A stretch of DNA of 64,000 bases. It comes from Sipunculus nudus. Lineage: Eukaryota > Annelida > Sipuncula > Golfingiida > Sipunculidae. Position 1 is the stretch's first letter, and every line of letters starts with the position of its first letter. Below the pieces are notes generated by a model, which saw only the letters and a list, made by a program, of their open reading frames with translations, was not told where the DNA came from and searched no databases. The stretch covers positions 71,626,300 to 71,690,299 of the forward strand of contig CM049314.1 of the NCBI GenBank assembly GCA_026874595.1, written 5' to 3'. The translations under genes and the position numbers were made by a program. Shown here piece after piece: positions 12,534-44,660 of this stretch.

Positions 12534-14006
12534 GACGAGCGTGTGCCACCGGCTATGGGCATATGATTAGCCAAATGAGCAGTGATAGAAGTGTTTGCTA
12601 CCAATTTTTTACCCAAACGATGGAATGACTGAGAAAAAAGCTTCCGAAAGATGTATGATTACCGGTGGAACTTTAGTGAGCATCGAATCGCAGGAAGAAA
12701 TGGATCATTTGAAAGACATCCTGGACAAGAACCAAAACCTGCTGGCGTTCGGTACTTCTATCTTATTGCTATTCTTACCATGCTGATTTATTAACATTCT
12801 AGGACACGTATGACTGGGATAGCGCTACTTTGGTCATCTAGGTTACCATCCATTAGTTCAACGACACAGCAGGTGATATACCAATGATCGAGACAAGAGT
12901 GTGTTTTTGCCTATGAGGTTTATGGTCTCAAAGCCAGGAGATGGTCAGTTTAAATCTTAGCTAAACAGCAATGGTATTGTTCACGGTAGGACTTCCGCCA
13001 TTGATGATAATTGTATCATAGTGTACTTTCTCAAAGTTATTAAGTGCGAAACCGAAATTATATTCTACAGGTGTACAAAGTAGTACCCTATCAAATTTAG
13101 TATAGTACACGTGTCATTAAATTCGTGTGTACGCATACACGTCAGTAAACATACAGACCCCGTTGGGACCTATGCATGGGTCATATCCCTGTTATCAACT
13201 GGATTCCCTCTGGTAAACTGTATCAGACATGTTTATGAAATATTGGCGTTCTGTGACAGACAGTTTTACTTATAAGAGTTATGCGATGGATTGTCTTGTT
13301 TTGTCTTATTTCGCGGTAAAGCGGAACGTGTTTATAAGCTAGTATAAATATATATATAGAAAGCTGTCCAATTCATGACTTTCTTTGTCGTCACTTTTTG
13401 TATTAAGATCGTCACACGGTATTGCAGGAGAAGATAAACCATTAAATTTATATAAATGGAATAAAAAAAGGATATAATGGTAATTATCAAAATAACAAGG
13501 ATTAATCAATTATAATTTTTAAAACTTTATAAATTGACTCACTCCTCGAAATTGAAAGACAATTTCATCTTTACAGAAAATGTTAAATGTCATTCACTTC
13601 TTATAATTCAATTTAGCTTCTCCTTGAATGACAATATATAAGAGAATACATCAAACAAATTAACTGTATGAATGTTCTGCTCTTCATAAAAAAAAAAATT
13701 GTGTACCTGACTACTACAAGACTTATGATTTTAGATATATTTGTTTTAGACCCAAGATATGACACACTAAGAGCAGGCCTTCATCGCGGATACTGGACCT
13801 CAGCTAAATATGTTAAAACCGAGGACAAGTGGATCTGGGAAGCAACTGGACAAGACATGGTGTATGAAAACTGGGGATTTGATCAGATTCGGCTTCCATG
13901 GGAAGGACACATGTACATCGACATGGGAGTATTTCGGTGGCGATATATACAAAGTACCCGCATATTTTCGCCACTGTGCGAGAGAAAAACAGTTTGTGCG
14001 CCATGA
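12534..14006 (+). pseudogene. C-type lectin pseudogene copy 1 (frameshifted exon 2, intact exon 3)
   Basis: Exon 2 is 12534-12751 (acceptor TTTCAG, donor TTCG|GTACTT). Exon 3 is 13750-14006 (acceptor TTTTAG, stop TGA 14004-14006). Exon 2 encodes the N-terminal CTLD half, with the conserved ERC cysteine and LVSIESQEEMDHL. It is 218 nt against 216 nt in the other copies, because a T run after the Cys-Tyr-Gln codons has two extra bases. The frame is lost about 30 codons into the exon and meets TGA soon after. Exon 3 is the only uninterrupted one of the four: GYWTSAKY, WIWEATGQ, VYENW, FRWRY, PLCERK. The phase-1 junction gives a split Asp codon. No exon 1 was found, since the block that carries it in units 2 and 3 is absent. 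Sugar-binding EPN/QPD and WND motifs are missing. Confidence 0.82.
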
Positions 14007-16699
14007 AACTAAAATACACTTAAAGGCTAATATATGGCCCGTGTTGTTTCATGAAAATCTTATTTCCCCTTGGAACGGAAAAAGAAATATGAATAGATAC
14101 ATGAACATAGACCAATTTTAAAGAGTCAGTAACATCATTTGAGGAACAGAATGTGTTTTCATTGGTTGAAATCCATATTTTTATATGAGATATGAAGGTA
14201 AAATTACCATTGGCGAAGTACGACATTTTCCATTTGGCGTTCCGGACTTCTATCTGCTTCTTATTTCCGATAATATTTTACAATATTCAGTTTAGTCAAT
14301 GAGATATTTCTTATACTTCTTTCTTTGTGTTTTCGCCCACGATCAAGTGTGTTGTTTCAGTTATTCTTTTCTTTCCCTTCCTCCTCTTAGAAATAAGTTA
14401 CTATATCCAAGAATCATGTTACAAAAGTATGAATATGCCGATACAATATTATAAAATGAATACAACTAAAGTAAAAACATGTTTTTCTATTTTACCGACA
14501 TCTGTTTAGTGAACCTTCGACATCGAATGTAGTATTATGGACATCGAATGTAGTCTTTTAACAGGCCAAACAAGCATTTTTATTCTCTGTATGTGGTTAT
14601 ATATCCAAAGAATGAAAAGCTATCAGTTTAAATAAAGCAATCGTCACGACATATCCACTGGAGATTTGTTTTTTGACCACCTATTCTTCGTCATTTAAAA
14701 TCTGTATTTCTAGGATAACATTTAAGTATATTGTTTAAGGAATATTGGGTATATTAAAATATATTTCCATTTAGAGGACGATGTACGTCTGTAACATAAA
14801 ACATTAAATGGAAAAATATATTGGTAAAATCAGCAGGACGAGGCATAAGACGTTAAGGTACAACCATTAAAGAAGCATGGTAAAACTGTAATTGTTTTAG
14901 GAAGGCCTGTCATAAATGTAGAGTTTTGTTTTCTTTTTAAATCAAGTATTCAAAATAGCCTTTGGCGTGCGTACAGTTGACTGGGTATTGGATAGACCAA
15001 TCTATTTCATGGCACATCTTGGTTTGGAAAAAACTGCTCAAAGGGTCTTAATCCATCAAGTTTTCCCCAGTTCCCTTTAAAATATTCCGCCTTATCATAT
15101 ATTTATATCCAAATGGGTGTTTTGATAAGCACCATCTCAATTTGAATGACTTACACTTGATGCAATGTGCGGACTTCAATTTGCTTCTTATTGCTTATAT
15201 TATTTACATTTACTGTTCAGTTAAATCAATGAGATATGTTTAGCCAATCATGTAACCATGTTGTATTGTATTGTAAATAAATTATTTTTGTAAAAACATA
15301 ATGGTTAAAAATGTGGTCACACAATATGTGACCTCATTTTATAATATTACAAACATAATACATACTTATTTGGCTGGTCAAATAAAATGATGTCAAATAA
15401 AATGTAGTCACACCATATTTTTGCCGATATTTATTGGTAAAAATTTGGTGACACCATACCTAACCACATTTTATAATATTATATAACTTAATTGGCTGTT
15501 CAAATAAAATGTGGTCTTACCTTATTTTTGTTAATATTGTTCGGTAAAAAAATATTGTCACTTGGTTTAAAAATATAATTAAAAAATAAGGGAAATTATG
15601 ATGTAAGTAAATATGAAAATGTTGTCACATGATGTGATTAAATGTATGAATAATAATAACAAAAATAAGGCACGTCATGGTGAATTAATAAATATGAATT
15701 GTGCCACAAAATATGTTCAAATTAAAGAAAAATGAAAGTTCATACATTTGAATCATGAAATTGGATTCTTTGCCCAACGTGATCCTGTATTTGTCCCGTT
15801 TGTCTATCAATAATGGGTATCTTCACATCTGACTGTCCTGATATACAGTAGTCAAACAGGAAAATAAAAAAAAAGATAAACGTGTCTAAAATGTATTTCT
15901 ATACTCCGTACTTCAATGACTATATTATACAATATTGTATTTATTTGAAATATAAAACATACCTGAAGACAGTGTTGAATAGAGCAAGAGTTCACGTGAT
16001 CAGTTAAATACACTCACAGTCGACATTTTTTATTTTTGTCAGCATAACTTCGTCAACTTTTTGAAAATCTTGTTAAACGTAGCTAGTGGAGGTAAAATTA
16101 TTTTTTATCTATGCACAAAAAGATTTATCCAATTTAATTTTATTTGACATAATATTTTTGTTTAACCTGGTATATACGTATATAACGTCGGCTCAGATCG
16201 TCTTTAATACGACGTTATTTTCGGTATTTAAAAAAAAGTTTTTGGACAGTTTGTAAAAAAAATTAATATATATTTAATTTACCAAAATATGATATCATTA
16301 GATGTGCCGAATCGTAAACTTTATGATGAGAGAAAAAAATATGGGTCTGTTATATTGCACGATTAATTGTAAACGATTGATCGTCAGGATTGATATCAGC
16401 TTCTAGATTTTTATTTGACTGTATGATATTTTATTCAAGTTGTTTACTGATTTATAAATCAAGATATTCATTTTTTAAATTGCTGTCTTAAGGTACGCCG
16501 TATGCTATAAATTTAAATATAAAGTCTAATAAGCATTTGCGATCATACTAGCAGAAAATTATTATGAATATGGTAAACCATCAGCAAAATTAATATGAAA
16601 GGTAAGCCTTGTGAGGTGGCTCATATGACTGAGACACGGAGGACAAGGATTCCATGCTAAGTATTAGATTTTAACAATGTACGCTTTAAATCATCACAT

Positions 16700-18560
16700 T
16701 TCTTAATGTCAACAAAAAGTATGTAGACATCCTTAAGTCTCGGAGGACTTTATAGTTGCGCTCCTGTTGGATGTTCTACAGCCGCGTCATGATGGCTGGT
16801 TAGGCCGATGCAGGGGCGGCAGTCTCCCAGACAGCGATTGCACAGGAACGCTGAAGCTGTTCTGTTAGTTTGACCTCTGGCTCGTAGTTTTAGATGGTTT
16901 TGTATTGCTGGACTAAATTCTTTTTTGATTTAGTACGGCCTTTTCTGTACTGTCTGCGTCCAGGTTGTTCGTTCTAAGGCGATGGCTTCCCCGGTTGATG
17001 CATATGACCTTCGGTTCTCTCTTGCGGACATCTTTGTAGCGGAGTTAAGGTCTTCCTGTAGAGGGTGTTCCCTGTGCCAGTTCACCGAAGGATATCCGTG
17101 GGGATCAAACCATCATTCATTCTCATGAAGTGTACAAGCCATCGCAACATCTTTGTTTGAGTATGGCGTACATACTAGGGATTTCATCTCTCTTCATGAC
17201 AGCAGTGTTTCGTACTTTATCCTGCCAGCCGATGTCGAGGATGCGAAAAGCATTCAGCTTGTGCTCCTGTGTGGCGCTTGGTGGTCAGGCCTCACTGCCG
17301 TACAACAATGTATCTCGGAGCAAGGCTTTAACCAGTACTGCGGGCCGCCCGAAAAGTTTGAAGTTTTTTGTTTGCAGGGATTGGCTTTCAGCGCGTTCCC
17401 TTTTTCCTCGATGAGGGGTACCATTTCCTCAAAGTGGGCTTGGAACCAGTCTGCTTATCTTGGTTTTATTGTCAAAGGTGGATATGGCTGTGTTGTAGTC
17501 TCTGAAGTGTTTTTGTTTCGTGGTCACTTGCGCCAGGTGGGCCTTGTAGGGATTATTCGATTGCTTTTGCAAACTTTTCCACTGTCTTTTATCTGCGTAT
17601 GCTGTTGGTGTAAATGCAAGTCTGTCTTCCTTTCTGGAGAGATGCAGATTATTCACGCGCAGTTTCAAGTTGTTGCACACCGGAGAGTGGTTTGTGTTGC
17701 AGTCAGCACTGTGGGATGTTTTTGATGATAACGTTGAGGTGATCATAAAACTGTCCTAGCTTCTGCCGAGGATGTCACTGTTAGTGCGTAGACACTTATT
17801 CGGTGGACTTGTCCGAATGATAAAAGAAGTTGAAGAACAGGATTCTTTCAGATGAATCCGAGCAGGCAAATAACACTCCATACTATCTGCTTTCATCAGG
17901 TTTCCCTTCCAGAAAAAAGGAGAAGACTGTTTCTCTTACTCTTCCTTTTCCTGGGAGTCTTGCCTCTTGCACGGCGACGAAGTCCATTTGCAGTCTGCTC
18001 AGCTCCATATCATTGCCCGGTGTGATTGTCCTATCAGGATATATGGAAGAGTATTGGTTTCCTTCTCTTCATTGCTACCTGCACAGCTGTCAATCCGCTG
18101 GTCGGTTTCAACCCTAAACCTCATGCACCAGTTGATGCTAACGGACCGTGGCTGGGCATCTTACTGATTGGTTTTTGCCGAGCTAAATGCGGGTGGTGGC
18201 TGCCAAATGAGACGCGAAGGTCTCTCCCACCGTCGAAAGCAGCCCCTGGCGTCTAACTCTACAACCAATCGAGTTTGGACCTATAACCAGTAAACTGATG
18301 CTTTCAGTGAAGCTGGAGTGTTCTCTCCAGTACGCAGAAAGCCTGGGTAGGTTAGTATGGAGGACAGTTTCCCAGGAAGCGGTCCAATAAAGGGCAGATG
18401 CGAGTACGCATGGTTCTATTGCCAGGATTTTGCTTGATACAGCCTCGAGCTGCCTTTGGGACTCCGACTCAGATTTTTTGTCAGATATAACTCCCTTAGC
18501 CTTTCTCTCTCTAAGCCTTTTGATTTCCTTAGGCTTTCTCTTTCGCTCTTGTCACATTTT
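16700..18560 (-). mobile_element. Non-LTR retrotransposon remnant, antisense (unit 2, longer form)
   Basis: The C-terminal LINE segment described for unit 1 lies at about 16700-17330. Above it the minus-strand frame 17746-17429 contains NPYKAHLAQVTTKQ, resembling the AHLA segment of the linker between endonuclease and reverse transcriptase in this LINE group. This passes almost directly into the C-terminal LLYGSEA region, so the reverse-transcriptase core appears deleted. Higher still (17750-18560) is GC-richer sequence that is probably 5' element sequence, with many stops. It is inactive. The insertion is shared by all four units and sits between the lectin copy and the next promoter block. 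Confidence 0.78.
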
Positions 18561-19789
18561 TTAATTAAAAGAATTTCTCATCTCATTAAATGTACTATTA
18601 TAAAAAATGAATGGAAATAATGAAATAACAAGTAATATATAAAACACACTCATTGCTTATAAATTTAATAGAAAGCAAATATCACAATACGTGTCGCAAT
18701 AAGCTACCACATATCGCAATACAGTGTACTAAGGAATTTGTAGGCAATACCCAGCCCTAGTAAAAAGCATTGTAAAAAAGGGAAATGGATAGGCAATCGT
18801 CTGAGAAAGGCGTGGGTTTAACTACTTATTTTAAATCAAGTACTCATAATAGCCTTTGGAGTTCCTTTATATCAGTGAGTGTCGCATTGATCAATGTATG
18901 TCTATGGCTATCTTGGTTTACATACAACTGATCAAAGTGTCTGCAACCATCCGGGTGTCTTTGCAAACTCTTTGAAATTAGACTGCCTGATTAAATATTG
19001 ATATTTTAATGGGCGTTTTGACAAGCACTATTAAATTGATAGACTTACACTTTATGCAATGGGGAAAATCATTGCAAGTATCACGCCTTTCCTCTGGAAA
19101 TTAAATTGATTTATAAACTTTTTATTAAACCAAACCTAGATAGTCCTCTTTAAATCGAAATATCTCTTAATTTAGTCCTTTATTGAATTAATGGATACAT
19201 GGACAATTATTGAAAAGTGTCAGGCGATATAAGACATCAGAATAGTTTTTCTAATATATTTTTTTTTCCGACACTGAAACAAACACAGCTGTTCAAGCCG
19301 ATTACAGGAGCAGTTATAAAGTTAATTTATCATAATCTTTTATCTTCTAACACAAGCAGATGATTTAATAATGGTCCATATTTAAGAGTTACATTAGACT
19401 TTGGTAGAAGTTGTCTCTTTATGCGGTACAAAGCGATGAAATATTAATATGTTATAATAATATAGTGAAAATAATTTTTCAATGGTATAAGAGGAATGAA
19501 ACTGCGTGATGACTGACTTGTTTTCAGTTATATATGTTTATTCGTATAACATATGACACTTGACTCATATCTGCAAAAGACCTTTGCTGTCTCTGAGAAA
19601 CTCACTTGGAAATGGTTTCAAAGCGTTTCTAGAATGTTTCATTTACTAATGTTAAAATGGTTGATAGAATAACTTTACACTAAGAGGATGCTATTATAGT
19701 AAACGTTCAATATTGAAACATATTTACTTAAAAGTAAAAGACTATTAACAAGTGGTAGACAGCTGGTGAATAAAGGTCTATGAGTGTTC

Positions 19790-20045
19790 ATCTCTCTGTC
19801 TGAACTCTCTTATTGCATTCTTTTTCACTCTATCTCTTGATTCCTAACACACACTCTCTCTATATCCCTCTCTCTGCCTATTGTTTTCTATTCTGTCCCT
19901 TGATTTCTCTCTGTCTATCATCTGTTTAATGATGTCTCCGTCTCTCTCTTTCTCTCTGTTCCCCTATCTTCTCTCGTGTAATCTCTCTGCTACCCCTGGC
20001 TCTTTCTGTCTCTTTTGCTGTCTCTGTCTCTTGCTCTTTTGATCG
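19790..20045. repeat. CT-rich polypyrimidine tract (unit 2)
   Basis: Counterpart of 6401-6645. TCTCT and CTGTC words dominate. It has a small extra segment near 20030 relative to unit 1 and is shared with unit 3. Confidence 0.83.
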
Positions 20046-20470
20046 TTTGTTATCATTTTCTATTTCGTTTATGTTACGTACATGTATTAGCATCATAACT
20101 TTAATTTTCATATGATAGGCTTTAAGTCCTGTCACAAAAGACTAATTAAAATGTCCCACTTTATGTCTCGTTTTATAATTAGATCAGTTATGTTATGTAT
20201 ATAGATTAAATCGGAGTTTTTTTTGTCATTCTATGGCTCTGGTTCATTATTCTGTCATTGAAGTATGAACTTGGGCTTATATAAAAACCAATTCTCCCTT
20301 CTATTTAATATAGTAAAAAAGAGAAGTCCTTGGGTATTATATTTGTTTTCTGTTTGGACACATAAAGGTATCTCCGCCTCTATCTTACTCTCTCTCTCGA
20401 TATTTGTATATGTATATAATATATTATATATATATATTATTTACTTTTACATATATAGCATATTTGTTTT

Positions 20471-20507
20471 TAGATAGATAAATAGATAGATAGATAGATA
20501 GATATAA
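20471..20507. repeat. (GATA)n microsatellite (unit 2)
   Basis: Shorter GATA run than unit 1, with one AATA interruption. It is the same in unit 3 (36244-36279). Confidence 0.9.
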
Positions 20508-23500
20508 ATTCATAACTTTTAATGTATCAGAATGCAAATACATGCACCAACGAAAAAAATGTTTTTCTAAATGTTGTAATGTATACGAACACAGCCGTTG
20601 TATTGGAGGACAATGCAGGTTTTCAGGTTGATTGCTCTGGATGAATATTTGTCAGAACAGTATTGTTTTGTAACGGGCATTTATCTATGCCGCCTACAAG
20701 GGTATAAAGATATGCCCCTTTTGACCTCACAAAAACAATACTTTTATGATGCTGTCTTTCAAATTTGACGTTTTCAGTTCTGACCTGTCCCATTAAATGA
20801 TGCAGTTCTCGTAGGGAATATATTTTAAAGGGATATTGATCGCATGATTTTTACATCCGACCAGGTTGAACAAAAGCATTTCGTTTATTATACTGGAATA
20901 GCGGTTGGTCTATTTCAAGTCACTATAAACTTTGAAAACGTTATGTAGTCGATGTTCATTTTGCTGGATCAAAGATAAGATGTTTTCAAAGACCTATATT
21001 AAAAAAAAATTAATAATTGAAAAACATCTTCCCTAAATAAGTGATAATGATCCTTCAGGCAATCTGTTGAAGCTGCATATATGAGATTATTACAAGAAAG
21101 GATTATTCTATATAAAAGGATTATTCCATACAAGGGATTATTTCGTGACGAACTTTATTAAATATTTTATATTTCGAGGTAATGATTATATGTGTGGTAA
21201 GTGTTATGATTCGACGTGTTTGCATAGTCGGGGAAAGATAGAGATTATTGTCAGCCTTTAGATTTCCCTGTGCTCTTTAAACCATGCATATATAAATATC
21301 GAAATATCAGAAGAAACAAACAAAGAAACAAGCAAACTGACATATAACACACATGTATATACTTTGGATTATTCCAGAGCTTACACTCAAAATCTATTAT
21401 GGTTTTAGTTTATTATACTTTGAAAAAAAAACTATATATTTGATTGTACCTCTGCATCGTATAATATAATTCTGGAGTTATGAAAATATATACAGCAAAG
21501 AATATGGGATGGCTCAGTGTAACTGATTTACAATGCTCATCAGATGATTAAAATAGTTGATTATATGAATTTTAATAAAACTATAATGTGCGTTAAATGG
21601 AACAATCTTTGTAATATAATTATTTTATGCTCAGCTTTGAATAATCACTGGCGCAACTACATTCTACTGAACAGTGGTTAACGACCTGCAGCTTAATGAC
21701 TCTGTTTTGTACATTTCGAAAATGTTTTATAAATAAAAATAATTTAAATGTTTACCGTAGAATTCTTACATGTATTTCGGATTGTATTAACTTTTTCTCT
21801 AAATAATATATTACTGATAATAATATGATATACTAAGTACTATAATATTACTATTGACTTAAAAATTATTATAAATCTTTTGAAAAATAAAAACTATTAA
21901 TTAAAAAAATATGTCTTTGGAGACAGCCTTTTGAGAATCCGGTCATGAAAAAAGAGACACAATACAATGATGGGGCTTTCGTTTCAATGGTCCTTTCCCT
22001 TAGTTACAGATAACAAAGACATGCTTCTGAGAAGATACAGGCCTTAGAATCTACTCCAACTGCTTCGAAGCGCAGTGAGTGGGTTCGTGTACTTTCTATT
22101 TTTAAAGGAAATTATCATATACACACATGAATAAGTAACAATTTACATTATGATATATTTTAATTTGCCTGAAAATTTAATGGAACTTGGGTAAACGGTT
22201 TCTTGTCTCATGACAAAAAAAGCAGTTCTCGCTATAATGAGATTTTAATTAAGGTAGAGTTTGTTAAACAGATTGCATTAATCATCACCAGTTTGATTTG
22301 CTATACATTTTTTCCAATATCAGATATAAATATATATTTAAAATTACAAATAAACAGACACGGTTGAAACACAAAGGAGAATAGTCAAATTTAGTATGGG
22401 CGAAACTGCCTTTAAAAAAAGAATATCGGCTCGAAAGTTTTAAGTTTAAAAGAATCACATTCCTGTTACAAATCAGCTGATTTTAACACCAACTACGTCA
22501 CACGTGTTAACCTTTAACATTACCATTGTTCAAATTCATTAATAAGCTGGGATAAATCCTGCAAATCGTTACAATAGATATAAAGTGGGTCGGGCAGGTT
22601 TCAAGTACTTTTTATAATATCATTAGTTATATATTTCCTTCATATTACGTGGTCTATCGGTACATGAAAAATGAAGGACTATAGCTCTCAAGCTGTATGA
22701 TTTAGGCTCATAGAAGTGCATATATATCCAATATACATTAAACCCTAAACTACCCTTAGGTTTAATTATAATCCGTTTCCTTGATTTTGTCTACATACAG
22801 ATATATCCATTGCCCTCATAAATAAAAAAGAGACATATTACAAAGTTTGCTTATATTGTAGCCAGTAAACATAAATACATTATCGAGTTGAATTGACATC
22901 ATATTTCATAACAAGCATTCTTTTGTAATTATGAGCCGATGATATTTTAATTGAACGTTAAACTGACTAAAGTATTACAGTCCGTCGTTATGCGAAACCT
23001 TAATAATACATGTTTCGCTCGAGTCGTGGATTATGGAACAATGATGAGGCTGGTGTTTGTCACAATTCCACCCTGATTCATCAATGACCAAAGATACAGC
23101 TCAGGGGAAATGCAAAACGATTTGTTAGAGATTTAGTAGGCATTGAATATCAGGAAGAGAAAACGACATTTACCTGCTTACAAATATATTTATCTGATAA
23201 TAATCCATGTCTGAAGTAACACTCCATTGCTTAAGGCATGCTTTAATATCCAAACAACAATTAACTAAAGACTTTAATGAACAAGTTTGGACGAGATCAT
23301 GACATCCAGTATGTGTTCAAAAAATTAATTAATAACTTCTATCCGTCGTTAGAAAAATGACAGATAGAATAAGGATATAAAGTTGGCGATGGGTAAAAAT
23401 AATATTACAAAGGCCAAGTGAGATCGCCTTGCCAGATTACAAGGTTATACGTGATCTGCTTATTGACAGCTCAGTAACTTGTAAGGAAGAAACTCGGAAT

Positions 23501-24497: not shown

Positions 24498-24540
24498 TAT
24501 ATAAAGGATATATTGATACAAAGCGTACAAATAATATTAC
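24498..24540 (+). promoter_or_regulatory. Candidate TATA promoter of lectin copy 2
   Basis: TATATAAAGG stands 432 bp before the signal-peptide ATG. About 35 bases on, AACGTGAGAT could be the donor of a short noncoding first exon, as in the minus-strand lectin. The block is absent from unit 1 together with exon 1. This is position-based inference without transcript support. Confidence 0.35.
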
Positions 24541-25330
24541 AACGTGAGATAAACCAGGTAGAAACATTATATTAGATGTGTCATAGTAATTAGGAATATA
24601 ATTAGGAAGACAAAAGATTCCTCTTCATATGCCAGATCCTGTATAAATTTATGTTCTTTGTCGACAATAGAAGCTACACCACATGTCAGAGCTTCACCAG
24701 ATCCATGGCGTCTGAGGTATACTTCTAATTTCTAGGAAGTGAAACAACGAATGTTTGTAACATGAAATGACACAAACAATATACAAATAAATAGTAACCG
24801 TATACATTATCTATTTTGTTCCATATATTACCAAAAGAGCACTTTGGAGTGACAGGTTCAAAATGAACGTGGCTGCTTAAGACATGGTACTTTGACGTCT
24901 TCCCAATTCATCCGGCTGAGGGATACCTAATGGCAGAGAAGAATACAGTGATCACCCTGCTGTGTTTATCTGGTAATAACGTACATCATAACATTTGCTA
25001 TATCATGAATGCTTAAATTTAAAATTTCTTTTAGTTTGTGTCGACCGTTTTGTCTTCCAGTATTAGTTTTTGCCATCTTGTACTAATTATCATGTAAAGA
25101 AACAAGGTTACGTATTTTGAATAACCCTTGTTATACAATACTAGTGATTCCAGATAATGATATATCAATTTGTTCAGGTCTAGCCGCGATATTAAAATAA
25201 AGTGAATGTTAAGATGACATATCAATATACCAATGTCAGTATACTTTTTTCATTGACATAATTTTATTTTATAAAAATTTATTGGGTTTTTATTAGTATC
25301 ATATATGTATTACCTTACCAAACGGAAAAT

Positions 25331-25516
25331 ATGTTACGTTCCTTTTTAGTAACTGTTAATGGAATTAGGAATACCAATACCACCGGCCTGAAGATAATAA
25401 CTACAACGGATGCTTCCCTATCCTGCTGTCCCAGCTATCTGATATATAATGTTAGTATCATCCTGAACATGATCCCGAATTTGCGGACCACCCTGAGATG
25501 CAGTGAGTATTGCCAT
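25331..25516 (+). other. Exon-like open segment in lectin intron 1 (unit 2)
   Basis: An open frame rich in Thr, Ile and Asn with two adjacent cysteines (LSCCPSY) ends close to a good donor word, CA|GTGAGTATT, near 25501. The sequence is unchanged in unit 3 (41104-41313) and missing in unit 1. No family was recognised. It may be an alternative exon or chance. Confidence 0.2.
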
Positions 25517-25580
25517 AAGTTAAAAAGTTGTAGGATTTAAGTCCCTTTCCAAATAATTGGCACAGAAAACTTTACAATTA

Positions 25581-25821: not shown

Positions 25822-27925
25822 ATATACGTAAATAATATGACCTTTCTTAATATGACCAGAATACTTCGGTGGGTATGTATATATGTACATACAAGTTTAT
25901 CAATAATATTATAATCGCACGTGTTTTAATATATTCGCGCGTGTTTTCATATTGAAATTATGAATACATGAAAGCAAATGTGAAATAAACTGATTCTACG
26001 TTGTACCGGTGAATCCGAGCAAACAAAAACAACAAATTTTATACAAATATACCTACAAATGAAGTAAAAAAATAGACTGTATAAAGTTTCACTTCTTATA
26101 AGTTAACTTTGAATAACAACTGTGTCTGTTGTTTCACTCTACCTTTTTTTTTATTTAATATTATCATGAACAACATAATCCTCATAGCGCTAAACCTCAC
26201 TAAGTGCATTCAAAGATTATTTTGTCATAGAAAATTAGTATTTAAGGTAGCTTCACCTGCAACGTTCAAAATTTTGTGCAAATATTTAGAAGTCAGCTCT
26301 AACAATAATCAAATAAAGCAAACATACATTAAATGATGAAGCTTTAAAGGAGAAAAATAATTTTCCGTGTTTTTTAAACTGTGCTTAATTATTGAATTTT
26401 AAAATAGTCTTACAGTTGGAAAGCTCACACTTAGCTCTCTCAGACAACACAAACAAAACAAAATCAATCAAGATAAAAAGAAGTATTTTTTTTTAATTTT
26501 GAAAAAAAGTTCATTAATTTGCAAATTAATGGATTTCAAAATTTTGTGTCAACGTATAAGGCCCACATCTAGCCATTTCTGGTAAAAGAATCATTTCCAT
26601 TAATCGCGGCCGGAAGACGGATGGACGGCACAGCATTGCGGGACGGTATTTATATAATGAGTAAATTATTCCGTGGAACAAATGTCACTTATATCAATCA
26701 GAATTCGGGTACCACTAAATACTGGAAAAGTAATATGCGATGGTAAAGCGACCCATCCAGGTGGAGTTTATTTCCTAAGTCGCTTCATGCTACAGAAATC
26801 AGGATAAGCTCCGGTCTGATGGGCCAGTGGGCTCGGATGTAAAAGCCTCATAGACTTTATCTTTACTCTTTGGGAATTATTTGAACAAACCTCCTTTGAC
26901 CTAATCCCTGCTTGTTTCAGAAAGAGCGTGTGCCACCGGCTATGGGCATAAGATTAGCCGCACGAGCAGTGATAAGGGTGTTTGCTACCAATTTTACCCA
27001 AACGATGGAATGACCCAGAAAAAAGCTAACGAAAGATGTATGGTCACCGGCGGAACTTTAGTGAGCATCGAATCGCAGGAAGAAATGGATCATTTGAAAG
27101 ACATCCTGGACAAGAACCAAAACCTGCTGGCGTTCGGTACTTCTATCTTATTGCTATTCTTACCATGCTGATTTATTAACATTCTAACACATGTATGACT
27201 GGGATAGCGCTACTTTGGTCAACCAGGTTACCACAGCAGGTGATATACCAATTATCGAGACAAGAGTGTGTTTTTGCCCATGAGATTTATGCTCTCAAAG
27301 CCAGGAGATGGTCAGTTTAAATTTTAGCCAAACAGCAATGGTATTGTTCACGGTAGGACTTCCGCCATTGATGATAATGGTATTATAGTGTACCTTCTCA
27401 AAGTTATTAAGTGCGAAACCGAAATTAAATTCTACAGATGTACAAAGTAGTACCCCATCAAAATATTAAAAAGACACGCACAGGACTTCTTCGTAAACCC
27501 AAACAGATTTATCACATGATTATAACCAACAGGAGAAATACTCTGGACAAAACGATAGCAGTTTTAAAGTAATAACTGCAACGATTGACACTTAATGTCA
27601 TTGTTGAACTTTACTGGCATTATATCGCTAATGGCTTAATTTAAATGAATATCCTTTAAAAGCATGTTTAATTATACTTAGTACAGTACACGTGTCATTA
27701 AATTCGTGTGTATGCATACATGTTAGTAAACATACAGACCCCGTAGGGACCTATGCATGGGTCATATCCCTGTTATCAACAGGATACACTCTGGTAAACT
27801 GTATCAGACATGTGTATGAAACATTAGCGTTCTGTGACAGACAGTTTTACTTATAAGAGTTATGCAATGGATTGTCTTGTTTTGTCCTATTTCGCGGTAA
27901 AGCGGAACGTGTTTACAAGCTAGTA

Positions 27926-27984: not shown

Positions 27985-28898
27985 AGCTGTCCAATTCATC
28001 ACTTTCTTTGTCGTCACATTTTGTATTAAGGTCGTCACACAGTATTGCAGGAGAAGATAAACCATTAAATTTATATAAATGGAATAAAAAAACAAGGATA
28101 TAATGGTAATTATCAAAATAACAAAGATTAATCAATTATAATTTTTAAAAATTTATAATTTGACTCACACCTCAAAATTGAAAGACAATTTCATCTTTAC
28201 AGAAAATGTTAAATGTCATTCACTTCTTATAATTCAATTTAGCTGCACCTTGAATGACAATGTATAAGAGAATACATCAAACAAATAAATTAACTGTATG
28301 AATGTTCTGTTCTTCAACAAAACTTGTGTACCTGACTACTACAAGAATAATGAATTTAGATATATTTGTTTTAGACCCAAGATATGACACACTAAGAGCA
28401 GACCTTCATCGCGGATACTGAACCTCAGCTAAATATGTTAAAACCGAGGACAAATGGATCTGGGAAGCAACTGGACAAGACATGGTGTATGAAAACTGGG
28501 GATTTGATCAGATTCGGCTTCCATGGGAAGGACACATGTACATCGACATGGGAGTATTTCGGTGGCGATATATACAAAGTACCCGCATATTTTCGCCACT
28601 GTGCGAGAGAAAAACAGTTTGTGCGCCATGAAACTAAAATACACTGAAAGGCTAATATATGGTCCGTCTTGTTTCATGAAAATCTGATTTCCCCTTGGAA
28701 AGGAAAAAGAAACATGAATAGATACATGAACATAGACCAATTTTAAAGAGTCAGTAACATCATTTCAAGAACAAAATGTGTTTTCATTGGGTGAATTCCA
28801 TATTTTTATATGAAGGTAAGATTACCATTGGCGAAGTACGACATTTTCCATTTGGCGTTCCGGACTTCTATCTGCTTCTTATTTCCCATAACATTTTA

Positions 28899-30053
28899 CA
28901 ATGTTCAGTTTAGTCAATGAGGTATTTCTTATACTTCTTTCTTTGTGTTTTTACAATGTTCAGTTTAGTCAATGAGATATTTCTTATACTTCTTTCTTTG
29001 TGTTTTTACAATGTTCAGTTTAGTCGATGAGATTTTTCTTATACTTCTTTCTTTGTGTTTTTACAATGTTCAGTTTAGTCGTTGAGATATTTCTTATACT
29101 TCTTTCTTTGTGTTTTTACAATGTTCAGTTTAGTCGATGAGATATTTCTTATACTTCTTTCTTTGTGTTTTTACAATGTTCAGTTTAGTCGATGAGATAT
29201 TTCTTATACTTTTTTCTTTGTGTTTTTACAATGTTCAGTTTAGTCAATGAGATAATTCTTATACTTTTTTCTTTGTGTTTTTACAATGTTCAGTTTAGTC
29301 AATAAGATATTTCTTATACTTCTTTCTTTATGTTTTTACAATGTTCAGTTTAGTCAATGAGATATTTCTTATACTTCTTTCTTTGTGTTTTTACAATGTT
29401 CAGTTTAGTCGATGAGATATTTCTTATACTTCTTTCTTTGTGTTTTTACAATGTTCAGTTTAGTCAATGAGATATTTCTTATACTTCTTTCTTTGTGTTT
29501 TTACAATGTTCAGTTTAGTCGATGAGATATTTCTTATACTTTTTTCTTTGTGTTTTTACAATGTTCAGTTAAGTCAATGAGATAATTCTTATTCTTTTTT
29601 CTTTGTGTTTTTACAATGTTCAGTTTAGTCGATGAGATATTTCTTATACTTCTTTCTTTGTGTTTTTACAATGTTCAGTTTAGTCAATGAGATATTTCTT
29701 ATACTTCTTTCTTTGTGTTTTTACAATGTTCAGTTTAGTCGATGAGATATTTCTTATACTTTTTTCTTTGTGTTTTTACAATGTTCAGTTTAGTCGATGA
29801 GATATTTCTTATACTTCTTTCTTTGTGTTTTTACAATGTTCAGTTTAGTCAATGAGATATTTCTTATACTTCTTTCTTTGTGTTTTTACAATGTTCAGTT
29901 AAGTCGATGAGATATTTCTTATACTTTTTTCTTTGTGTTTTTACAATGTTCAGTTTAGTCAATGAGATAATTCTTATACTTTTTTCTTTGTGTTTTTACA
30001 ATGTTCAGTTTAGTCAATGAGATATTTCTTATACTTCTTTCTTTGTGTTTCCG
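28899..30053. repeat. 55-bp minisatellite, 21 copies (unit 3)
   Basis: Monomers start at 28899 and repeat every 55 bp to 29999. Variant monomers (TCAATGAG/TCGATGAG, GATATTTC/GATAATTC, CTTCTTTC/CTTTTTTC) recur in blocks, suggesting internal duplication of several monomers at a time. Confidence 0.97.
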
Positions 30054-32470: not shown

Positions 32471-32474
32471 CTTA

Positions 32475-34335
32475 ATGTCAACAAAAAGTACGTAGGCATC
32501 CTTAAGTCTCGGAGGACTTTATAGTTGCGCTCCTGTTGGATGTTCTACAGCCGCGTCATGTATGGCTGGTTAGGCCGATGCAGGGGCGGCAGTCTCCCAG
32601 ACAGCGATTGCACAGGAATGCTGAAGCTGTTCTGTCAGTTTGACCTCTCGCTCGTGGTTTTGGATGGTTTTGTATTGCTGGACTAAAGTCTTTTCTAATT
32701 TAGTACGGCCTTTTCTGTACTGTCTGCGTCCAGGTTGTTCGTTCTAAGGCGATGGCTTCCCCGTTTGATGCATATGACCTTCGGTTCTCTCTTGCGGACA
32801 TCTTTGTAGCGGAGTTAAGGTTTTCCTGTAGAGGGTGTTCCCTGTGCCAGTTCACCGAAGGATATCCGTGGGGATCAAACCATCATTCATTCACATGAAG
32901 TGTCCAAGCCATCGCAACATCTTTGTTTGAGTATGGCGTACATACTGGGGATTTCATCTCTCTTCATGACAGCAGTGTTTTGTACTTTATCCTGCCAGCC
33001 GATGTCCAGGATGCGGAAAGCTTTCAGCTTGTGCTCCTGTGTGGCGCTTGGTGGTCAGGCCTTACTGCCGTACAACAATGTATCTCGGAGCAAGGCTTTA
33101 ACCAGTACTGCGGGCCGCCCGAAAAGTTTGAAGTTTTTTGTTGCAGGGATTGGCTTTCAGCGCGTTCCCTTTTTCCTCGATGAGGGGTACCATTTCCTCA
33201 AAGTGGGCTTGGAACCAGTCTGCTTATCTTGGTTTTATTGTCAAAGGTGGATATGGCTGTGTTGTAGTCTCTGAAGTGTTTTTGTTTCGTGGTCACTTGC
33301 GCCAGGTGGGCCTTGTAGGGATTATTCGATTGCTTTTGCAAACTTTTCCACTGTCTTTTATCTGCGTATGCTGTTGGTGTAAATGCAAGTCTGTCTTCCT
33401 TTCTGGAGAGATGCAGATTATTCACGCGCAGTTTCAAGTTGTTGCACACCGGAGAGTGGTTTGTGTTGCAGTCAGCACTGTGGGATGTTTTTGATGATAA
33501 CGTTGAGGTGATCATAAAACTGTCCTAGCTTCTGCCGAGGATGTCACTGTTAGTGCGTAGACACTTATTCGGTGGACTTGTCCGAATGATAAAAGAAGTT
33601 GAAGAACAGGATTCTTTCAGATTAATCCGAGCAGGCAAATAACACTCCATACTATCTGCTTTCATCAGGTTTCCCTTCCAGAAAAAAGGAGAAGACTGTT
33701 TCTCTTACTCTTCCTTTTCCTGGGAGTCTTGCCTCTTGCACGGCGACGAAGTCCATTTGCAGTCTGCTCAGCTCCATATCATTGCCCGGTGTGATTGTCC
33801 TATCAGGATATATGGAAGAGTATTGGTTTCCTTCTCTTCATTGCTACCTGCACAGCTGTCAATCCGCTGGTCGGTTTCAACCCTAAACCTCATGCACCAG
33901 TTGATGCTAACGGACCGTGGTTGGGCATCTTACTGATTGGTTTTTGCCGAGCTAAATGCGGGTGGTGGCTGCCCAATGAGACGCGAAGGTCTCTCCCACC
34001 GTCGAAAGCAGCCCCTGGCGTCTAACTCTACAACCAATCGAGTTTGGACCTATAACCAGTAAACTGATGCTTTCAGTGAAGCTGGAGTGTTCTCTCCAGT
34101 ACGCAGAAAGCCTGGGTAGGTTAGTATGGAGGACAGTTTCCCAGGAAGCGGTCCAATAAAGGGCAGATGCGAGTACGCATGGTTCTATTGCCAGGATTTT
34201 GCTTGATACAGCCTCGAGCTGCCTTTGGGACTCCGACTCAGATTTTCTGTCAGATATAACTCCCTTAGCCTTTCTCTCTCTAAGCCTTTTGATTTCCTTA
34301 GGCTTTCTCTTTCGCTCTTGTCACATTTTTTAATT
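32475..34335 (-). mobile_element. Non-LTR retrotransposon remnant, antisense (unit 3)
   Basis: Same remnant as in unit 2. The lower part, up to about 33030, has the diagnostic bases of unit 4 (for example GTTTTGTAC and AGCTTTCAG). From about 33121 it has those of unit 2 (GAAAAGTTTG), apart from one base lost in a T run near 33140. It therefore contains a recombination or conversion junction. It has no coding capacity. Confidence 0.78.
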
Positions 34336-35559: not shown

Positions 35560-35820
35560 CATCTCTCTGTCTGAACTCTCTTATTGCATTCTTTTTCACT
35601 CTATCTCTTGATTCCTAACACACACTCTCTCTATATCCCTCTCTCTGCCTATTGTTTTCTATTCTGTCCCTTGATTTCTCTCTGTCTATCCTCTGTTTAA
35701 TGATGTCTCCGTCTCTCTCTTTCTCTCTGTTCCCCTATCTTCTCTCGTGTAATCTCTCTGCTACCCCTGGCTCTTTCTGTCTCTTTTGCTGTCTCTGTCT
35801 CTTGCTCTTTTGATCGTTTG
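35560..35820. repeat. CT-rich polypyrimidine tract (unit 3)
   Basis: Nearly identical to the unit 2 tract at 19790-20045. Confidence 0.83.
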
Positions 35821-36243
35821 TTATCATTTTCTATTTCGTTTATGTTACGTACATGTATTAGCATCATAACTTTAATTTTCATATGATAGGCTTTAAGTCC
35901 TGTCACAAAAGACTAATTAAAATGTCCCACTTTATGTCTCGTTTTATAATTAGATCAGTTATGTTATGTATATAGATTAAATCGGAGTTTTTTTTTTGTC
36001 ATTCTATGGCTCTGGTTCATTATTCTGTCATTGAAGTATGAACTTGGGCTTATATAAAAACCAATTCTCCCTTCTATTTAATATAGTAAAAAAGAGAAGT
36101 CCTTGGGTATTATATTTGTTTTCTGTTTGGACACATAAAGGTATCTCCGCCTCTATCTTACTCTCTCTCTCGATATTTGTATATGTATATAATATATTAT
36201 ATATATATATTATTTACTTTTACATATATAGCATATTTGTTTT

Positions 36244-36279
36244 TAGATAGATAAATAGATAGATAGATAGATAGATATA
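36244..36279. repeat. (GATA)n microsatellite (unit 3)
   Basis: Matches the unit 2 allele in length and in its AATA interruption, unlike unit 1. Confidence 0.9.
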
Positions 36280-39200
36280 AATTCATAACTTTTAATGTAT
36301 CAGAATGCAAATACATGCACCAACGAAAAAAATGTTTTTCTAAATGTTGTAATGTATACGAACACAGCCGTTGTATTGGAGGACAATGCAGGTTTTCAGG
36401 TTGATTGCTCTGGATGAATATTTGTCAGAACAGTATTGTTTTGTAACGGGCATTTATCTATGCCGCCTACAAGGGTATAAAGATATGCCCCTTTTGACCT
36501 CACAAAAACAATACTTTTATGATGCTGTCTTTCAAATTTGACGTTTTCAGTTCTGACCTGTCCCATTAAATGATGCAGTTCTCGTAGGGAATATATTTTA
36601 AAGGGATATTGATCGCATGATTTTTACATCCGACCAGGTTGAACAAAAGCATTTCGTTTATTATACTGGAATAGCGGTTGGTCTATTTCAAGTCACTATA
36701 AACTTTGAAAACGTTATGTAGTCGATGTTCATTTTGCTGGATCAAAGATAAGATGTTTTCAAAGACCTATATTAAAAAAAAATTAATAATTGAAAAACAT
36801 CTTCCCTAAATAAGTGATAATGATCCTTCAGGCAATCTGTTGAAGCTGCATATATGAGATTATTACAAGAAAGGATTATTCTATATAAAAAGATTATTCC
36901 ATACAAGGGATTATTTCGTGACGAACTTTATTAAATATTTTATATTTCGAGGTAATGATTATATGTGTGGTAAGTGTTATGATTCGACGTGTTTGCATAG
37001 TCGGGGAAAGATAGAGATTATTGTCAGCCTTTAGATTTCCCTGTGCTCTTTAAACCATGCATATATAAATATCGAAATATCAGAAGAAACAAACAAAGAA
37101 ACAAGCAAACTGACATATAACACACATGTATATACTTTGGATTATTCCAGAGCTTACACTCAAAATCTATTATGGTTTTAGTTTATTATACTTTGAAAAA
37201 AAAACTATATATTTGATTGTACCTCTGCATCGTATAATATAATTCTGGAGTTATGAAAATATATACAGCAAAGAATATGGGATGGCTCAGTGTAACTGAT
37301 TTACAATGCTCATCAGATGATTAAAATAGTTGATTATATGAATTTTAATAAAACTATAATGTGCGTTAAATGGAACAATCTTTGTAATATAATTATTTTA
37401 TGCTCAGCTTTGAATAATCACTGGCGCAACTACATTCTACTGAACAGTGGTTAACGACCTGCAGCTTAATGACTCTGTTTTGTACATTTCGAAAATGTTT
37501 TATAAATAAAAATAATTTAAATGTTTACCGTAGAATTCTTACATGTATTTCGGATTGTATTAACTTTTTCTCTAAATAATATATTACTGATAATAATATG
37601 ATATACTAAGTACTATAATATTACTATTGACTTAAAAATTATTATAAATCTTTTGAAAAATAAAAACTATTAATTAAAAAAATATGTCTTTGGAGACAGC
37701 CTTTTGAGAATCCGGTCATGAAAAAAGAGACACAATACAATGATGGGGCTTTCGTTTCAATGGTCCTTTCCCTTAGTTACAGATAACAAAGACATGCTTC
37801 TGAGAAGATACAGGCCTTAGAATCTACTCCAACTGCTTCGAAGCGCAGTGAGTGGGTTCGTGTACTTTCTATTTTTAAAGGAAATTATCATATACACACA
37901 TGAATAAGTAACAATTTACATTATGATATATTTTAATTTGCCTGAAAATTTAATGGAACTTGGGTAAACGGTTTCTTGTCTCATGACAAAAAAAGCAGTT
38001 CTCCCTATAATGAGATTTTAATTAAGGTAGAGTTTGTTAAACAGATTGCATTAATCATCACCAGTTTGATTTGCTATACATTTTTTCCAATATCAGATAT
38101 AAATATATATTTAAAATTACAAATAAACAGACACGGTTGAAACACAAAGGAGAATAGTCAAATTTAGTATGGGCGAAACTGCCTTTAAAAAAAGAATATC
38201 GGCTCGAAAGTTTTAAGTTTAAAAGAATCACATTCCTGTTACAAATCAGCTGATTTTAACACCAACTACGTCACACGTGTTAACCTTTAACATTACCATT
38301 GTTCAAATTCATTAATAAGCTGGGATAAATCCTGCAAATCGTTACAATAGATATAAAGTGGGTCGGGCAGGTTTCAAGTACTTTTTATAATATCATTAGT
38401 TATATATTTCCTTCATATTACGTGGTCTATCGGTACATGAAAAATGAAGGACTATAGCTCTCAAGCTGTATGATTTAGGCTCATAGAAGTGCATATATAT
38501 CCAATATACATTAAACCCTAAACTACCCTTAGGTTTAATTATAATCCGTTTCCTTGATTTTGTCTACATACAGATATATCCATTGCCCTCATAAATAAAA
38601 AAAAGACATATTACAAAGTTTGCTTATATTGTAGCCAGTAAACATAAATACATTATCGAGTTGAATTGACATCATATTTCATAACAAGCATTCTTTTGTA
38701 ATTATGAGCCGATGATATTTTAATTGAACGTTAAACTGACTAAAGTATTACAGTCCGTCGTTATGCGAAACCTTAATAATACATGTTTCGCTCGAGTCGT
38801 GGATTATGGAACAATGATGAGGCTGGTGTTTGTCACAATTCCACCCTGATTCATCAATGACCAAAGATACAGCTCAGGGGAAATGCAAAACGATTTGTTA
38901 GAGATTTAGTAGGCATTGAATATCAGGAAGAGAAAACGACATTTACCTGCTTACAAATATATTTATCTGATAATAATCCATGTCTGAAGTAACACTCCAT
39001 TGCCTAAGGCATGCTTTAATATCCAAACAACAATTAACTAAAGACTTTAATGAACAAGTTTGGACGAGATCATGACATCCAGTATGTGTTCAAAAAATTA
39101 ATTAATAACTTCTATCCGTCGTTAGAAAAATGACAGATAGAATAAGGATATAAAGTTGGCGATGGGTAAAAATAATGTTACAAAGGCCAAGTGAGATCGC

Positions 39201-40270
39201 CTTGCCAGATTACAAGGTTATACGTGATCTGCTTATTGACAGCTCAGTAACTTGTAAGGAAGAAACTCGGAATGTAATTGTTAAGACACAAGATTCGTCT
39301 TCATATGCCTTGTCCTTTTGTATATAGTCGACATCGGAAGTAGACACACCACATACAGGAAGTGCACGTATATGCTTTTGGTTCAATATGGCAGCCTTTT
39401 CACCCGACCGCATGCCGTGTACGGTTGAGGCTTATTTATATTTACTATAAAGCAAATACCAGGAACAGCGAATTCAGCATCAAATGCCAATGAACCGTCG
39501 TGATTGGAAAAATAAATGATCATTTATAGGTTATTAATCCCGTTTTAGAGCTAATAACACACACGTTTGTACCACAAAGACTACTTCAAGTCTCTTAAAT
39601 CACAATGAAATGTAAAAAGAGGCCCTTTGAGAGAAAAAAGGGCTGTTCGCAAATTTGACAAGTAAACGTGCTGTGAAATGCCAGTGTTAATTCTAATCAA
39701 ATAAACATAAAAAATACATTAAAATATCAAATAAATTCCATTAGATTAAATAAAAAAATGTCAGTTCTAATTAAGCAGACTTATTCTTCATTGACAACAC
39801 CTGTCAAGCGTTAATGAAAACGTTTATTGGCCCCAGTGCATGCATTGTTACTTGAAACCCCACTTGAATTTTCTTAAGTGCTACCCATACAAAATCACTT
39901 CTATCGAATAATGGCAAATTTTAATAGGTATACAAATAAAGCTGAAATTAGAGATTCACTGAAATTAACTATATTATATTAAAAGAGGAAAGGATATTGG
40001 TAAAGGGAGTGGAAAATAATTCAACCATAGGTTTTTTTCGTGTATATAAGTCAACTGTCGTGGTTTCTTTAATCGAAATTGTCCTGACAAAAAATAGTCA
40101 TACCTTATCGTATAGGTGGAATGAAATTACACTAAAAAATCTCAAGTACATGTATTTCTTATTGTGGTCTATATATTATCAAAAGTTAATTCTACTTAAA
40201 TGACTCTGGCTGCTGCAATCACGAATGTGATATGTGTATCTAAGATCAATTTCATCAGGAAAATCACAGG

Positions 40271-40313
40271 TATATAAAGGATATATTGATACAAAGCGTA
40301 CAAATAATATTAC
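40271..40313 (+). promoter_or_regulatory. Candidate TATA promoter of lectin copy 3
   Basis: TATATAAAGG with the same downstream GTGAGAT word as in unit 2, 432 bp before the exon 1 ATG at 40703. Inference from position and from the TATA/noncoding-exon layout of the minus-strand relative. Confidence 0.35.
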
Positions 40314-41344
40314 AACGTGAGATAAACCAGGTAGAAACATTATATTAGATGTGTCATAGTAATTAGGAATATAATTAGGAAGACAAAAGATTCCTCTTCA
40401 TATGCCAGATCCTGTATAAATTTATGTTCTTTGTCGACAATAGAAGCTACACCACATGTCAGAGCTTCACCAGATCCATGGCGTCTGAGGTATACTTCTA
40501 ATTTCTAGGAAGTGAAACAACGAATGTTTGTAACATGAAATGACACAAACAATATACAAATAAATAGTAACCGTATACATTATCTATTTTGTTCCATATA
40601 TTACCAAAAGAGCACTTTGGAGTGACAGGTTCAAAATGAACGTGGCTGCTTAAGACATGGTACTTTGACGTCTTCCCAATTCATCCGGCTGAGGGATACC
40701 TAATGGCAGAGAAGAATACAGTGATCACCCTGCTGTGTTTATCTGGTAATAACGTACATCATAACATTTGCTATATCATGAATGCTTAAATTTAAAATTT
40801 CTTTTAGTTTGTGTCAACCGTTTTGTCTTCCAGTATTAGTTTTTGCCATCTTGTACTAATTATCATGTAAAGAAACAAGGTTACGTATTTTGAATAACCC
40901 TTGTTATACAATACTAGTGATTCCAGATAATGATATATCAATTTGTTCAGGTCTAGCCGCGATATTAAAATAAAGTGAATGTTAAGATGACATATCAATA
41001 TACCAATGTCAGTATACTTTTTTCATTGACATAATTTTATTTTATAAAAATTTATTGGGTTTTTATTAGTATCATATATGTATTACCTTACCAAACGGAA
41101 AATATGTTACGTTCCTTTTTAGTAACTGTTAATGGAATTAGGAATACCAATACCACCGGCCTGAAGATAATAACTACAACGGATGCTTCCCTATCCTGCT
41201 GTCCCAGCTATCTGATATATAATGTTAGTATCATCCTGAACATGATCCCGAATTTGCGGACCACCCTGAGATGCAGTGAGTATTGCCATAAGTTAAAAAG
41301 TTGTAGGATTTAAGTCCCTTTCCAAATAATTGGCACAGAAATTA

Positions 41345-41585
41345 CTTACGGCGGTAGCTCCCTTGGGCCGCTACACAGACCACACACGGTTTTGAGGTCG
41401 CTAGGGCCCGCCATACGCATATTGCACTTCATCCGATACCCATTTGTAATGCTGGGAAGACATCAGCACACTTTTCCCGGGAATGTGCTTGAGGGTCTAA
41501 GCTAAGACGTGAGAGCCTACGGGATTCGAAGCCACGACCACTTGATCACAAGTCCGGCTCCTTTGCCGTTACCCCACCAGGCTCC
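41345..41585 (-). mobile_element. tRNA-derived SINE (unit 3)
   Basis: Same insertion as units 1 and 2. A short deletion just before it (ACTTTACA missing) separates it from unit 2. Confidence 0.75.
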
Positions 41586-43703
41586 ATATACGTAAATAAT
41601 ATGACCTTTCTTAATATGACCAGAATACTTCGGTGGGTATGTATATATGTACATACAAGTTTATCAATAATATTATAATCGCACGTGTTTTAATATATTC
41701 GCGCGTGTTTTCATATTGAAATTATGAATACATGAAAGCAAATGTGAAATAAACTGATTCTACGTTGTACCGGTGAATCCGAGCAAACAAAAACAACAAA
41801 TTTTATACAAATATATCTACAAATGAAGTAAAAAAATAGACTGTATAAAGTTTCACTTCTTATAAGTTAACTTTGAATAACAACTGTGTCTGTTGTTTCA
41901 CTCTACCTTTTTTTTTTATTTAATAAGGCTGCACGATATTATCATGAACAACATAATCCTCATAGCGCTAAACCTCACTAAGTGCATTCAAAGATTATTT
42001 TGTCATAGAAAATTAGTATTTAAGGTAGCTTCACCTGCAACGTTCAAAATTTTGTGCAAATATTTAGAAGTCAGCTCTAACAATAATCAAATAAAGCAAA
42101 CATACATTAAATGATGAAGCTTTAAAGGAGAAAAATAATTTTCCGTGTTTTTTAAACTGTGCTTAATTATTGAATTTTAAAATAGTCTTACAGTTGGAAA
42201 GCTCACACTTAGCTCTCTCAGACAACACAAACAAAACAAAATCAATCAAGATAAAAAGAAGTATTTTTTTTTAATTTTGAAAAAAAGTTCATTAATTTGC
42301 AAATTAATGGATTTCAAAATTTTGTGTCAACGTATAAGGCCCACATCTAGCCATTTCTGGTAAAAGAATCATTTCCATTAATCGCGGCCGGAAGACGGAT
42401 GGACGGCACAGCATTGCGGGACGGTATTTATATAATGAGTAAATTATTCCGTGGAACAAATGTCACTTATATCAATCAGAATTCGGGTACCACTAAATAC
42501 TGGAAAAGTAATCTGCGATGGTAAAGCGACCCATCCAGGTGGAGTTTATTTCCTAAGTCGCTTCATGCTACAGAAATCAGGATAAGCTCCGGTCTGATGG
42601 GCCAGTGGGCTCGGATGTAAAAGCCTCATAGACTTTATCTTTACTCTTTGGGAATTATTTGAACAAACCTCCTTTGACCTAATCCCTGCTTGTTTCAGAA
42701 AGAGCGTGTGCCACCGGCTATGGGCATAAGATTAGCCGCACGAGCAGTGATAAGGGTGTTTGCTACCAATTTTACCCAAACGATGGAATGACCCAGAAAA
42801 AAGCTAACGAAAGATGTATGGTCACCGGCGGAACTTTAGTGAGCATCGAATCGCAGGAAGAAATGGATCATTTGAAAGACATCCTGGACAAGAACCAAAA
42901 CCTGCTGGCGTTCGGTACTTCTATCTTATTGCTATTCTTACCATGCTGATTTATTAACATTCTAACACATGTATGACTGGGATAGCGCTACTTTGGTCAA
43001 CCAGGTTACCACAGCAGGTGATATACCAATTATCGAGACAAGAGTGTGTTTTTGCCCATGAGATTTATGCTCTCAAAGCCAGGAGATGGTCAGTTTAAAT
43101 TTTAGCCAAACAGCAATGGTATTGTTCACGGTAGGACTTCCGCCATTGATGATAATGGTATTATAGTGTACCTTCTCAAAGTTATTAAGTGCGAAACCGA
43201 AATTAAATTCTACAGATGTACAAAGTAGTACCCCATCAAAATATTAAAAAGACACGCACAGGACTTCTTCGTAAACCCAAACAGATTTATCACATGATTA
43301 TAACCAACAGGAGAAATACTCTGGACAAAACGATAGCAGTTTTAAAGTAATAACTGCAACGATTGACACTTAATGTCATTGTTGAACTTTACTGGCATTA
43401 TATCGCTAATGGCTTAATTTAAATGAATATCCTTTAAAAGCATGTTTAATTATACTTAGTACAGTACACGTGTCATTAAATTCGTGTGTATGCATACATG
43501 TTAGTAAACATACAGACCCCGTAGGGACCTATGCATGGGTCATATCCCTGTTATCAACAGGATACACTCTGGTAAACTGTATCAGACATGTGTATGAAAC
43601 ATTAGCGTTCTGTGACAGACAGTTTTACTTATAAGAGTTATGCAATGGATTGTCTTGTTTTGTCCTATTTCGCGGTAAAGCGGAACGTGTTTACAAGCTA
43701 GTA

Positions 43704-43705
<2 letters not shown>

Positions 43706-43743
<38 letters not shown>
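43706..43743. repeat. (AT)n microsatellite in lectin intron 2 (unit 4)
   Basis: AT run of about 19 repeats, shorter than the equivalents in units 1 and 3. Confidence 0.97.
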
Positions 43744-43746
<3 letters not shown>

Positions 43747-44660
43747 AGCTGTCCAATTCATCACTTTCTTTGTCGTCACATTTTGTATTAAGGTCGTCAC
43801 ACAGTATTGCTGCAGAAGATAAACCATTAAATTTATATAAATGGAATAAAAAAACAAGGATATAATGGTAATTATCAAAATAACAAAGATTAATCAATTA
43901 TAATTTTTAAAAATTTATAATTTGACTCACACCTCAAAATTGAAAGACAATTTCATCTTTACAGAAAATGTTAAATGTCATTCACTTCTTATAATTCAAT
44001 TTAGCTGCACCTTGAATGACAATGTATAAGAGAATACATCAAACAAATAAATTAACTGTATGAATGTTCTGTTCTTCAACAAAACTTGTGTACCTGACTA
44101 CTACAAGAATAATGAATTTAGATATATTTGTTTTAGACCCAAGATATGACACACTAAGAGCAGACCTTCATCGCGGATACTGAACCTCAGCTAAATATGT
44201 TAAAACCGAGGACAAATGGATCTGGGAAGCAACTGGACAAGACATGGTGTATGAAAACTGGGGATTTGATCAGATTCGGCTTCCATGGGAAGGACACATG
44301 TACATCGACATGGGAGTATTTCGGTGGCGATATAAACAAAGTACCCGCATATTTTCGCCACTGTGCGAGAGAAAAACAGTTTGTGCGCCATGAAACTAAA
44401 ATACACTGAAAGGCTAATATATGGTCCGTCTTGTTTCATGAAAATCTGATTTCCCCTTGGAAAGGAAAAAGAAACATGAATAGATACATGAACATAGACC
44501 AATTTTAAAGAGTCAGTAACATCATTTGAAGAACAAAATGTGTTTTCATTGGGTGAATTCCATATTTTTATATGAAGGTAAGATTACCATTCTCGAAGTA
44601 CGACATTTTCCATTTGGCGTTCCGGACTTCTATCTGCTTCTTATTTCCCATAACATTTTA

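Follow-up and report, generated by a model that had tools for sequence, protein, structure and literature searches.

In the mammalian NK complex, genes for C-type lectin-like receptors are clustered, blocks of them have been duplicated, members are broken in different ways, and exchange or repeats have been proposed as the cause, as set out in the excerpt available of PMC5350243. In the sea urchin, the similar genes of the Sp185/333 family lie clustered in segmental duplications flanked by short repeats, and the accessible part of PMC5103432 proposes gene conversion together with copy-number change. The array of C-type lectin-like domain (CTLD) genes that we describe here from Sipunculus nudus resembles the NK complex in its clustered CTLD genes, block duplication, variously broken members and exchange (PMC5350243, same excerpt). 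It differs from those mammalian NK-cell receptors in that its product is predicted to be a short protein with a leader, found in a marine worm, and the likeness is one of organisation, whatever the orthology of the genes may be. With Sp185/333 it shares similar genes clustered in segmental duplications with short repeats alongside, but that family is described in the same part of PMC5103432 as almost without pseudogenes, whereas eight of the ten close copies here are broken. The array belongs with known clusters of this sort: CTLD genes with broken members and proposed exchange in the NK complex, and unstable immune genes in the sea urchin. To our knowledge, Sp185/333 is not itself a CTLD family. 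Among the titles that a literature search on C-type lectins of S. nudus listed, none names this array.

We read the locus, with a probability of roughly 0.88, as a tandem array, still young, in which a CTLD gene with three exons evolves by duplication, unequal exchange and decay, in other words by ordinary gain and loss of duplicates. The sequences show ten close copies of this gene, which has a short hydrophobic leader, eight of them broken by several different lesions; duplications of near-identical blocks, already broken copies included; and mosaics of two lineages that break late in intron 1. The two structurally intact members, G1 and G2, would be the functional genes.

Extent of the array and its intact members

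The window, by which we mean the whole stretch of 64,000 nucleotides analysed, sits on Chr09 (C9), and coordinates below 1 are given relative to it, 0 being the base that precedes its base 1. A whole-genome protein search with exon 3 located at least ten close copies with 95–100% identity, all of them at C9 71,469,307–71,670,689, a span of ~201 kb. The search gave 149 matches among the best 150 of 836 candidates, and its counts are lower bounds. The census rests on these exon 3 matches; the exons were then read in all ten close copies, the reading covering the array span apart from ~75 kb (71,471,062–71,478,299; 71,485,300–71,545,889; 71,549,130–71,556,299). A solitary broken relative (C9:59296877-59300092), with 67% identity in exon 3 and a TAG, is found ~12 Mb away.

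Among the ten, two are structurally intact. Both G1 (C9:71560140-71563944), about 62–66 kb upstream of the window start, and G2 (C9:71593495-71597390), about 29–33 kb upstream, have exons 1, 2 and 3 open with GT-AG borders and a predicted product of 171 amino acids. The other eight are broken by several lesions: a TGA in exon 3 (copies 0, 2 and 3), two extra bases in exon 2 together with the lack of exon 1 (copy 1 and the twin upstream of it), the loss of one base in exon 2 (copy L033), the loss of five bases in exon 3 (copy L034) and a 5' truncation (a copy near window position −25621). Two intact and eight broken close paralogues (n = 10), combined with unequal block duplication, are what is expected of a birth-and-death family. 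The original prediction had offered, as one of two options, an array that is dead as lectin; the copies of the window are indeed broken, but since two copies have all exons open, the array as a whole is not dead as far as its sequence goes. G1 and G2 are probably working genes, and the window copies are probably recent pseudogenes.

Copies inside the window

Exon 3 occurs four times in the window, all on the forward strand (starts at 627, 13750, 28375 and 44137), with a TGA in the first, third and fourth and a TGG in the second. The original prediction had counted three copies; its account of copies 1 to 3 was correct, and it had overlooked copy 0, whose exon 3 (627–883) reads TGA at 671–673. 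Its exon 2, which is open, falls a little beyond the window start, at about −827 to −612, and an exon 1 of this copy was not found.

Exon reading confirmed each lesion that had been described in copies 1 to 3, all of them on the forward strand. In copy 1, exon 2 (12534–12751) is shifted in frame by two extra T, the run at 12605–12610 comprising six instead of four and the exon 218 bases instead of 216; exon 3 (13750–14006) is open, with TGG at 13794, and exon 1 was not found in the 144 kb that were read in and around the window. In copy 2, exon 1 (24930–24972) provides a start codon, a hydrophobic leader and the donor GTAATA, exon 2 (26921–27136) is open, and exon 3 (28375–28631) has TGA at 28419–28421 in place of TGG. 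Copy 3 repeats this arrangement, with exon 1 at 40703–40745, an open exon 2 at 42699–42914 and an exon 3 at 44137–44393 in which TGA replaces TGG at 44181–44183. The splice borders of copies 2 and 3 are GT-AG and apparently intact.

From these copies it had been concluded that the only open exon 3 lies upstream of both good pairs of exons 1 and 2, and that no in-order splice could rebuild a protein. Both statements hold inside the window. Beyond its edge, structurally intact members are found farther upstream, and exon 3 at 13750 has open exons ahead of it in the sequence, among them exon 2 of copy 0. As the array extends past the window, neither statement can be carried over to the whole of it.

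The complementary distribution of the lesions is in itself unsurprising, since two independent lesions, placed by coding length (43, 216 and 258 bases for exons 1 to 3), would strike different exons with a probability of 0.57. It amounts to separate lesion histories and recent duplication, and the TGA common to copies 0, 2 and 3 would most simply go back to one inherited event.

Domain family and sugar binding

Predicted G1 and G2 products pass the Pfam cut-off for PF00059 (Lectin_C) with 26.3 and 27.1 bits against 22.6, their best stretches being partial and covering profile positions 3–72 (G1) and 3–71 (G2) of 107. Matches to PDB sequences fall weakly among CTLDs, the best with an E of 2.1e-05. 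CTLDs have four conserved cysteines that form two disulphides. In all ten exon 3 copies, Tyr takes the place of one of these cysteines: they read MYIDM, whereas the cysteine is retained, in MCINM (52774–53019), by a divergent CTLD paralogue on the reverse strand of the window (52774–54307; exon 2 at 54307–54074, exon 3 from about 53018). The remaining three cysteine positions are kept in the array copies. CTLDs with a lost disulphide exist, and the missing cysteine weighs against a typical member of the family but leaves the fold itself unaffected as a classification.

Calcium-dependent sugar-binding C-type lectins carry EPN or QPD plus WND motifs. Neither EPN or QPD nor WND is present in the array, where FDQIRLPW (FDQIRFPW in one copy) and FRWRY stand instead. 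A neighbour at 79762–80019 in window coordinates has both QPD and WND, but likewise a Tyr at the MYIDM/MCINM cysteine site. The array would therefore encode CTLD proteins whose lectin activity and sugar binding are doubtful, because one conserved cysteine is missing in all ten copies, as are the motifs customary for sugar binding. Elsewhere, open frames of ~359–382 amino acids that match Lectin_C recur many times across the chromosomes, for example at C8:54904000-54908000; they are very similar, some form tandem pairs ~1.4 kb apart, and they look like a dispersed repeat with a CTLD.

Divergence between copies

Between G1 and copy 1, exon 3 differs at 1 of 261 positions and intron 2 at 48 of 982 (p 0.0002); exon 3 is also less divergent than intron 2 between G1 and G2 (p 0.016) and between copies 1 and 2 (p 0.002), and shows no difference from it between copies 2 and 3 (p 0.44) or between G2 and copy 2 (p 0.23), all p values being uncorrected and referring to 5 of 45 possible pairs. 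Gene conversion could give the same signal of low exon 3 divergence between the older lineages. An argument for selection on exon 3 from dN/dS was dropped, as the changes are too few (one synonymous and two nonsynonymous differences between G1 and G2). Positive selection on exon 2, whose two types in places diverge more than the introns do, was likewise rejected: G1 and G2 show 6.5 synonymous differences in 41.7 sites and 8.5 nonsynonymous differences in 171.3, so that the nonsynonymous changes per site reach about one third of the synonymous ones.

Mosaic copies and exchange

Copies 0, 2 and 3 are mosaics: they follow G1 up to a point late in intron 1 and G2 beyond it. For copy 2, the change is defined by 194 informative sites on the left and 90 on the right (chi-square 129.5, 0 of 2000 permutations), and the inferred recombination zone covers 26674–26808 on the forward strand, with G1-like sequence to its left and G2-like sequence to its right. 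The position of the break depends on the comparison: 26717–26766 against G1, 26674–26690 against L033 and 26799–26808 against L034. Five of the eight recombination tests yielded 0 of 2000 permutations, namely copies 0, 2 and 3 against G1/G2 and copy 2 against L034/G2 and L033/G2. The signal was weaker when G2 served as query (11 of 2000); 58 of 2000 were counted for the truncated copy near −25621, and copy 1 showed no recombination signal (1061 of 2000). The permutation treats sites as exchangeable and shows a change of affinity along the gene rather than the direction of transfer. Taken together, these comparisons of sequence support past exchange among the copies.

Exchange of this kind lies at the basis of the idea, raised in the original prediction, of a store of parts that unequal crossover could recombine. 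In its fuller form, crossover or conversion would return exons of broken copies to working genes and so regenerate variants. The composition of copies 0, 2 and 3, a G1-like 5' part joined to a G2-like exon 2, speaks for the recombination that such a store needs, and so does exon 2 of G2, which is identical to that of the three mosaics over 210 aligned bases despite 168 differences in 1919 positions between intron 1 of G2 and that of copy 2. However, the clear recombinants all carry the stop; an intact gene that received sequence from a broken copy is not among them, and G2 itself gives the weaker signal noted above. We therefore consider such a store unlikely. A related conjecture, to which we give slightly less credence still, is that exchange in intron 1, perhaps aided by the 55-bp minisatellite behind exon 3, shuffles the types of exon 2 between working and broken copies and occasionally rebuilds an intact gene, in which case the exon 2 repertoires of individuals would differ.

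Stops in a last exon generally escape message decay. Copies 2 and 3, in which the TGA falls in the last exon, could accordingly still be active and give rise to a truncated protein, for which their open exons 1 and 2, their good splice borders and a predicted length of 101 amino acids would speak. In such a protein the CTLD would end halfway, without two of its cysteines. We consider this reading improbable, and duplication, unequal exchange and decay remain our preferred one.

Duplicated blocks and minisatellite

The copies are true duplicates, as a tandem block of 15.4 kb recurs at a shift of 15,748 with 98.6% identity. A second, larger pair of blocks measures 21.7 kb: the segment at 2220–23905, which contains copy 1, matches window positions −22999 to −1296 at 99.71% and a shift of 25,219, with 37 mismatches and 26 gaps, and the other segment holds the twin of copy 1. 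Copy 1 and this twin have identical lesions, so an already broken copy was duplicated. With 0.17% mismatch against a heterozygosity reported for S. nudus as 2.03% (PMC10212961, in the portion available), the pair is young, and copy-number variation among individuals is to be expected. The small distance between the two segments might also suggest haplotypes that were falsely duplicated or misjoined in the assembly, but this is very improbable, because a heterozygosity far above 0.17% makes the twins unlike retained alleles, three copies share the TGA and two the two-base insertion, and the same portion of PMC10212961 describes a PacBio HiFi assembly with purged haplotigs. For the lesions themselves, assembly error is an unlikely source, since they recur across copies and the assembly derives from HiFi reads.

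A minisatellite with a 55-bp unit lies behind exon 3. It comprises 13 units behind copy 0 (1146–1863), 21 behind copy 2 (28894–30050) and 18 behind copy 3 (44656–45646), as well as nine behind G2, seven behind L033 and six behind the truncated copy; copy 1, its twin, G1 and L034 are each followed by a single unit. Separately, a repeated stretch within the units of the array (4461–5216, 17049–18551, 32819–34320 and 48411–49523) contains several overlapping open frames. Three of these frames (4461–5216 on the forward strand, 17429–17755 and 18183–18551 on the reverse strand) gave only Pfam matches below the cut-offs; these hits, among them ATX_III with 19.7 bits where 25 would be needed, were taken as chance. 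Rfam gave no match above its gathering scores over the window.

Meaning for the gene family

The edge of a window can make an ordinary gene array appear wholly dead. The array also shows, at a very early stage, how a CTLD cluster of a sipunculan duplicates, exchanges exons and decays. Should individuals differ in their sets of intact copies, it would offer a small natural test of recombination feeding an immune-type gene family.
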